Below are positions 11,478 to 12,357 of a stretch of DNA of 64,000 nucleotides, one piece after another. Made by a program: the position numbers and the translations under genes. The stretch spans positions 1 through 64,000 of the forward strand of contig VGCZ01000016.1 in the NCBI GenBank assembly GCA_016869975.1. The letters are read 5' to 3'. Source of the DNA: Alphaproteobacteria bacterium (GTDB lineage Bacteria > Pseudomonadota > Alphaproteobacteria > Reyranellales > Reyranellaceae). Every line of letters begins with the position of its first letter. The first letter of the stretch is position 1. A model generated the notes under the pieces. That model was not told where the DNA came from and did not search any database. It worked only from the letters and a program-made list of their open reading frames with translations.

Positions 11478-11595
11478 GCGGGGTAGGGCCGCCATGACCT
11501 GGGTCAAGCGGCGCACCGGGTGACTTGCCAGCAGCGGCGGGGCGGGCGAACCTCTGCTGCCGCCTCCCGGGGGCGGACCGCGTGCAAGGAAAGCC

Positions 11596-12357
11596 ATGAC
11601 AGCGCCGCTCCCGTTCAAGGTCTTCTGGCAGCCTGGTTGAACCAGCTGCCTGAGACTCAAGGAGTTTCTATCGGCCCGTGCGGTCGACTACGTATCCGTC
11701 AATGTGCTGGCCGAGCCCGAGGGTCTGGCCGAGTTGCAGGCCCTGGGCGCGCGCTCGGTGCCGGTGCTGTCGCGCGGTGACACGTACACCTACGCCCAGA
11801 GCCTGAAGGCGATCGTCGAGTTCGTCGGCCTGAACGAGAAGACCTCGCCTGACCTGACGCCGGCGGAGCTGTACGCGCGGCTCGACAAGTTCATGGACGC
11901 CGCCATCGCGCTCCTGCCGCTGATGCCGGCCGATCGCCTGGATGTCCACGTCCCCGGTCGTCCGCGCAGCTACCGCCACTTGTCGTTCCACATGTTCCGG
12001 GTGGTGGCGGCGTTCCTCGACGCGATCGACGGCATCACCCTGGTGCAGGACGCCTTCCGCGAGGTGCCGGCCGACGACGCCACGATGGCATGGGTGGCCG
12101 GCTACGGTGCGAAGGTGAAGCAACGCCTCGACGCGTGGTGGGCCAAGACCGCGGATCGCGACGGCACCGGTACGCTGGACACCTATTACGGCCCGCAGAG
12201 CATGCACGATCTGTTCGAGCGCACGACCTGGCACTGCGGCCAGCACGTCCGGCAATGGATGATGCTGCTCGAACGCGAGGGCGTGACGATCGTCCCACCG
12301 CTGGTCGACGCCGACTTCGCCAAGCTGCCGATGCCGCAGAACGTGTGGGATGGCTGA
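11596..12357 (+). CDS. glutaredoxin-DinB fusion, probable selenoprotein (Sec15, UxxC)
   Basis: From the ATG at 11596 (AAGGA five bases upstream) the frame reads MTAPLPFKVFWQPG, then TGA (11638-11640), then TSCLRLKEFLSARAVDYVSV and on without a stop to 12357. The first 75 or so residues form a glutaredoxin fold: the active site would be PG-x-TSC and the conserved cis-Pro is in ARSVPVLSRGD. TGA therefore replaces the first, catalytic Cys of CxxC, giving UxxC at residue 15. Residues about 85-253 are a DinB-like four-helix bundle with candidate metal-binding His (RHLSFHMFR; HCGQHVRQW). DinB/YfiT-type folds include thiol-dependent S-transferases, so a glutathione-linked role is plausible. A stem-loop follows the TGA. 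The alternative is a nonsense mutation. A conventional call would start at GTG 11704. Confidence 0.8.
11641..11668 (+). promoter_or_regulatory. candidate bacterial SECIS element after the TGA of the glutaredoxin-DinB gene
   Basis: GAGACTC (11652-11658) pairs fully with GAGTTTC (11662-11668), seven pairs including one G-U, closing a 3-nt loop AAG. Eighteen bases separate the TGA from the loop, as expected for SelB recognition. The loop lacks G in its first two positions, so the match to the published consensus is incomplete. Confidence 0.55.

Follow-up and report, generated by a model that had tools for sequence, protein, structure and literature searches.

A selenocysteine glutaredoxin (Grx, PF00462, UxxC) has been experimentally verified and is listed in earlier compilations (PMC13188914, PMC9312934). 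Selenocysteine (Sec, U) also occurs in the glutaredoxin-like domain of the UXX-star selenoproteins (NF041212, NF041211, NF047338), a feature they share with the gene described here. The second half of this gene resembles the bacillithiol transferases BstA-H (PMC5815605) and the mycothiol S-transferase (PDB 8f5v), which have a DinB fold with an H...HxxxH metal triad; we found no report of a glutaredoxin domain or of selenium in either. In the Alpha- and Betaproteobacteria, a 2006 survey recorded FdhA as the only selenoprotein (PMC1794560).

The window (the whole 64,000-nucleotide stretch of DNA that was analyzed, from a genome of the family Reyranellaceae) contains a gene, here called Grx-DinB, in which these two kinds of domain are joined and a TGA stands at the glutaredoxin active site. 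Its features are as follows.

11586..11590, + strand: AAGGA, a ribosome-binding-site-like sequence 5 nt upstream of the ATG (direct reading)
11596..12357, + strand: the putative Grx-DinB selenoprotein gene, 253 residues, with Sec as residue 15 (direct reading)
11638..11640, + strand: in-frame TGA, codon 15, read as selenocysteine, the U of UxxC (the homologues read have TGA or a Cys codon)
11620..11769, + strand: glutaredoxin domain, residues 9 to 58, motif FWQPG-U-TSC, with an invariant cis-Pro-like P56 (Pfam PF00462; predicted fold)
11896..12255, + strand: DinB-fold domain, residues 101 to 220, with invariant His132, His213, and His217 (PF12867, Foldseek)

The frame runs from an ATG (11596-11598) to a terminal stop TGA (12355-12357), and the TGA at 11638-11640 is the only other in-frame TGA between them. 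This codon, the 15th, occupies the first position of the glutaredoxin CxxC. The gene is solitary, flanked by an HlyD-type transporter operon on one side and pheT on the other, and comparison of gene neighborhoods across the Grx-DinB loci found no conserved neighbor except open reading frames overlapping the gene itself. A search of a defense-system library with Grx-DinB gave no matches. An ordinary gene caller would truncate the protein at the TGA or predict a shorter DinB protein.

The glutaredoxin family PF00462 matched the window protein with an E value of 2.7e-9 (37.5 bits; gathering score, 22.9), while the match to DinB_2 (PF12867), at 21.1 bits, fell slightly under the cut-off of 24.8. 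Both domains were matched in 21 of 21 aligned homologues. The model predicted from this alignment (mean pLDDT, 87) was compared with solved structures using Foldseek: the glutaredoxin part resembled 3zij and 7c10, and the DinB part resembled 2f22, 2p1a, and 6iz2 (TM score of ~0.7 by target), with the mycothiol S-transferase 8f5v among its matches. By sequence, the nearest solved proteins were the glutaredoxins 7c10 ("Dithiol cGrx1") and 7c12. U15 (or C15), C18, P56, H132, H213, and H217 were invariant across the aligned homologues, and the three histidines resemble the three-histidine metal site of the bacillithiol transferases (PMC5815605). An initial annotation of this DNA had proposed a glutaredoxin-DinB fusion that begins at ATG 11596 behind an AAGGA site, stays open through TGA 11638 to 12357, and has the TGA in place of the first Cys of the CxxC. 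Direct reading and the domain matches bear out the frame and the fusion, and the Cys codons of the homologues that lack the TGA bear out the replaced Cys.

A homologue with exactly one stop, a TGA, was present in 55 of the 101 genomes searched, and 54 of these were among the 61 genomes of the Reyranellaceae family. The TGA had the identical position in every locus spanning it, in the context FWQPG-U-TSCLRLKEFL when the codons were read, and the betaproteobacterial copies (L075 to L077), with 43% identity, carried it as well. The cultured species R. aquatilis (Reyranella) also has the TGA gene (L046). Ahead of the active site, PHU or PAU replaces PGU in the Sec forms L103, L104, L106, L107, L113, and L140. 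A wider alphaproteobacterial sample yielded the gene in 32 of 385 genomes, 19 with the TGA and 13 without a stop, and in the alphaproteobacterial order that includes genome G423, all 14 genomes searched had the TGA form. Of 398 genomes sampled from across the phylum, just two had the gene, both belonging to the same family as the window. Downstream of the TGA, dN was lower than dS in both domains for each tested pair (~0.045 to 0.33 versus 0.30 to 0.87).

Wherever a homologue lacking the TGA was read, codon 15 was TGC or TGT. These Cys forms include plasmid-borne copies of Variovorax, Roseomonas, Caballeronia, and Rhizobium, annotated as "glutaredoxin domain-containing protein" or "DinB family protein." The copy on the Variovorax sp. 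SRS16 plasmid lies near dioxygenase, thiamine-pyrophosphate-enzyme, and CoA genes, and the copy on a Roseomonas marmotae plasmid is flanked by an isochorismatase-family gene on one side and an AtzG/amidase pair on the other (loci L143 and L144). Genome G364 has two copies, one of the Sec form and one of the Cys form (L111 and L138). Genome G053, which has a TGA copy, also contains a distant Cys paralogue on a short contig (L089, on G053:C372; 38 to 39% identical), although this copy could be either genuine or a contaminant.

Synonymous constraint was strongest just after the TGA. Synonymous conservation peaked at codons +1 to +13, where mean homozygosity was 0.89 (0.47 expected), compared with 0.64 (0.51 expected) for the remainder of the gene (P = 6e-4). 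The rare synonymous codons AGA, TTT, CTA, and CGT in this stretch are 94 to 100% fixed in the family but make up only 4 to 12% of their amino acid's codons gene-wide. Two hairpins lie here.

11652..11668, + strand: hairpin 1, 7 bp, stem 11652-11658 with 11662-11668, loop AAG at 11659-11661, 18 nt past the TGA
11671..11687, + strand: hairpin 2, the proposed SECIS element, stem 11671-11676 with 11682-11687, apical loop CGUGC at 11677-11681, 36 nt past the TGA

Bacterial SECIS (bSECIS) rules call for an upper stem of 4 to 16 bp, an apical loop of 3 to 9 nt with a G within its first two positions, a spacing of 16 to 37 nt from the UGA, and a minimum free energy of ≤ -7.5 kcal/mol (PMC13188914). 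The stem (6 bp), loop, loop G, and spacing of hairpin 2 lie within these rules, its 36 nt being at the far edge of the range, and its energy when folded alone is -7.0 kcal/mol in the window and -4.9 to -10.1 kcal/mol across homologues, the window value lying at the limit set by the threshold of -7.5. Energies are weak, about -5 kcal/mol, where the loop is CGUGA; hairpins 1 and 2 together reach -14.4 kcal/mol. Across the Sec forms, the loop of hairpin 2 reads CGUGN and 92.9% of cells are paired, with compensatory changes at 3 pairs, whereas 44% of cells are paired in the Cys forms. An unguided consensus structure prediction also returned hairpin 2. When the bSECIS rules were used to scan for qualifying hairpins at ≤ -5 kcal/mol, 63 of 67 distinct Sec sequences had one, versus 1 of 11 Cys sequences. 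In the betaproteobacterial copies another hairpin, CCAAGG-AGUU-CCUUGG, lies 22 nt past the TGA; it has 6 bp and falls within the stem, loop, G, and spacing rules. Since the single-sequence folding energy of the RNA downstream of the TGA was ordinary (z of about 0 to -1), it does not by itself support an RNA signal.

Hairpin 1, which the initial annotation had pointed out as a 7-bp stem with a 3-nt loop 18 nt downstream, does exist, but it is conserved mainly within the Reyranellaceae and weakly elsewhere. Its pairing across the Sec forms is lower than that of hairpin 2 (75% of cells) with no compensatory pairs, and its loop, AAG or AAA, is without the G of the bacterial SECIS model, so it is a weaker candidate than hairpin 2 for the main SECIS element. 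It may act as a helper in the Reyranellaceae, perhaps as a compact spacer. Covariation and loop sequence suggest that hairpin 2 is probably the main SECIS element of Grx-DinB.

The window's genome also has the genes for selenocysteine insertion. selA, selB, the SelD fusion, and tRNA-Sec are all on contig C16, the contig that carries Grx-DinB, ~73 to 82 kb away from it.

C16:93671-93762: tRNA-Sec of the window's genome
C16:90092-91975: selB of the window's genome
L093:3409-5634 (G000:C16): SelD fusion, with a pyridine nucleotide-disulfide oxidoreductase domain in front of SelD
L134 (G000:C13:64033-67077): alpha subunit of a formate dehydrogenase, its frame containing a TGA before HGP, at locus position 2080

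The active site of this SelD is the Cys form, CAGCGAKI. Given that the formate dehydrogenase on C13 has its own in-frame TGA in addition to the sel set, Sec is very likely used in the window's genome. A hairpin directly follows the TGA of this formate dehydrogenase, a second selenoprotein of the genome.

Of the alphaproteobacterial genomes sampled, 32 have the gene; selB was present in 18 of the 19 TGA carriers among them and in 3 of the 13 Cys-only carriers (P = 4e-5, Fisher test), and tRNA-Sec followed the same pattern. The one exception among these TGA carriers is G072, a TGA carrier with a 77% complete genome, in which neither selB nor a strong tRNA-Sec match was found. No strong match to selB or tRNA-Sec was found in G033 (89% complete), and selB was not found in G803, the source of the betaproteobacterial copy L075; the genomes of the other betaproteobacterial Sec copies, G804 and G805, do have selB. 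The computational checks that the initial annotation had proposed came out in its favor. The sel genes, tRNA-Sec included, are present in the window's genome, Cys homologues with an intact CxxC were found outside the TGA group, and no homologue checked had decayed sequence downstream of codon 15. Its argument that chance would hardly place a nonsense codon at the catalytic position agrees with the recurrence of the TGA at this same codon in 55 of 101 genomes.

A sequencing error or a recent nonsense mutation, leaving a Grx-DinB pseudogene in the source strain, would look alike if one in-frame TGA had been seen in a lone genome. However, dozens of genomes, each assembled independently, share this TGA, the frame beyond it is intact and under purifying selection, and conservation of the TGA across genera and orders rules this explanation out, leaving it a negligible probability. 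The TGA might instead be a true stop, with the DinB protein restarting downstream (e.g., at GTG 11704) and the upstream part forming a short leader. Such an open reading frame does exist (11704-12357, 217 amino acids), but a start at 11704 would delete the first strand and helix. The codons that immediately follow the TGA specify TSCLRxKEFL, the active-site helix of the glutaredoxin; they are in frame with the stop-free Cys homologues and are kept at the protein level down to 43% identity, with other codons used in the Betaproteobacteria. Given this conserved helix and the continuous frame in the Cys homologues, we rejected a stop with restart as very improbable. Less probable still is readthrough of the UGA by a normal tRNA (Trp or Cys) with no selenium involved: although the Cys homologues show that Cys works at codon 15, the TGA forms co-occur with the selenocysteine machinery, and it is these forms, not the Cys forms, that have the SECIS-like hairpin.

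Taken together, the conservation of the TGA, the Cys homologues, the co-occurrence with selB, and hairpin 2 make it almost certain, on comparative genomic grounds, that 11596-12357 is a genuine selenoprotein gene in which UGA 11638 is decoded as selenocysteine. SelB and tRNA-Sec would do the decoding, directed by a hairpin in the RNA shortly downstream, most likely that at 11671-11687.

In a tree built without the Sec column, the distribution of Sec and Cys states needs 5 changes, of which strongly supported branches force at least 2. Since the betaproteobacterial Sec copies L075, L076, and L077 are nested in a Cys group with strong support and have an unrelated hairpin, they suggest a separate gain of Sec in betaproteobacterial Grx-DinB. 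The Cys pair L121/L123 groups with the Sec forms with moderate support, which suggests that Sec was lost in this pair.

TIGR01553 formate dehydrogenase was not found in 19 of the 37 TGA-carrying genomes searched, including the single-contig genomes G005 and G022; G005 has TIGR01591 matches without a TGA.

selB and the TGA gene, no TIGR01553 match: G004, G005, G006, G019, G022, G114, G127, G140, G155, G246, G254, G264, G339, G346, G364, G416, G423, G804, G805

It is conceivable, albeit rather doubtful, that Grx-DinB is a new selenoprotein family on whose account, mainly or solely, some lineages retain the Sec machinery. On this reading it would also have acquired Sec repeatedly, the SECIS hairpins of the alphaproteobacterial and betaproteobacterial forms being unrelated. 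The report that FdhA or SelD occurs in every selenoproteome (PMC1794560) runs against Grx-DinB as a sole selenoprotein. With this family one can ask what makes bacteria retain the Sec machinery when they have no Sec formate dehydrogenase.

The domain architecture suggests a Sec-glutaredoxin feeding a DinB-type enzyme. The Sec selenolate of the Grx domain would attack disulfides, oxidized thiols, or an electrophile, and the attacked Sec would be resolved by Cys18 and glutathione. The DinB domain would bind a divalent metal through His132, His213, and His217 and activate a thiol cofactor (glutathione in Proteobacteria), which would be transferred to a small substrate, unless the substrate is isomerized instead; the Grx half would then recycle or release the thiol adduct formed by the DinB half. 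We tentatively propose, from the domains and their invariant residues, that Grx-DinB could be a coupled metal-dependent thiol transferase or isomerase with a built-in selenol reductase. Because Cys homologues lie within catabolic clusters on two plasmids, there are hints of a role in small-molecule detoxification or catabolism.

The Grx half might alternatively play the part that the N-terminal domain has in a glutathione S-transferase (GST), holding or activating glutathione or forming an adduct through Sec, with no disulfide relay. Weak GST_N_3 matches in some members and the presence of whole GSTs among the Foldseek matches, albeit with poor superposition, are consistent with this arrangement, but the resolving Cys18 is invariant and would be superfluous in a one-thiol GST. 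We regard it as possible but not likely. We consider it unlikely that the protein is a thiol-dependent cis-trans isomerase or dehalogenase for ring-cleavage products, like the DinB-fold maleylpyruvate isomerases. One member matched MDMPI_N (E value of 0.0084) and the Variovorax and Roseomonas plasmid copies fall in catabolic clusters, whereas the Grx-DinB loci have no conserved neighbor in common and the gene in the window is solitary.

Grx-DinB differs from the described systems in several respects. It shares with the selenocysteine glutaredoxin the Grx fold, Sec as the first residue of the CxxC, and the resolving Cys. In contrast, that protein is listed as plain PF00462, whereas Grx makes up only the N-terminal third of Grx-DinB, a protein of Alpha- and Betaproteobacteria whose gene has a SECIS-like hairpin of its own. 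Unlike the UXX-star proteins, Grx-DinB still has its resolving Cys and continues into a DinB domain, and its scores fall far below the cut-offs of all three UXX-star models (30 versus 66 bits, 23 versus 100, and 27 versus 97). Its sequence is very divergent from those of BstA-H and the mycothiol S-transferase, with DinB_2 under the Pfam cut-off. The Cys homologues (e.g., WP_162571355.1 of Variovorax sp. SRS16) have the same two domains, are about 32 to 47% identical, and carry Cys at the Sec position, but they have no UGA and no hairpin 2, and their genomes usually have no selB; we found no functional study of them.

The 119 prokaryotic selenoprotein families tabulated in 2026 include Grx and UXX-star but neither Grx-DinB nor DinB, and NCBIfam has no model specific to Grx-DinB. 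A search of the freely accessible full-text literature found no earlier description, in agreement with the initial suggestion of an undescribed selenoprotein. Grx-DinB is thus apparently a known selenocysteine domain within a new, uncatalogued selenoprotein family. It brings a new domain architecture to selenoproteins and links selenium to the DinB/S-transferase-like superfamily, the natural substrates of which are mostly unknown.
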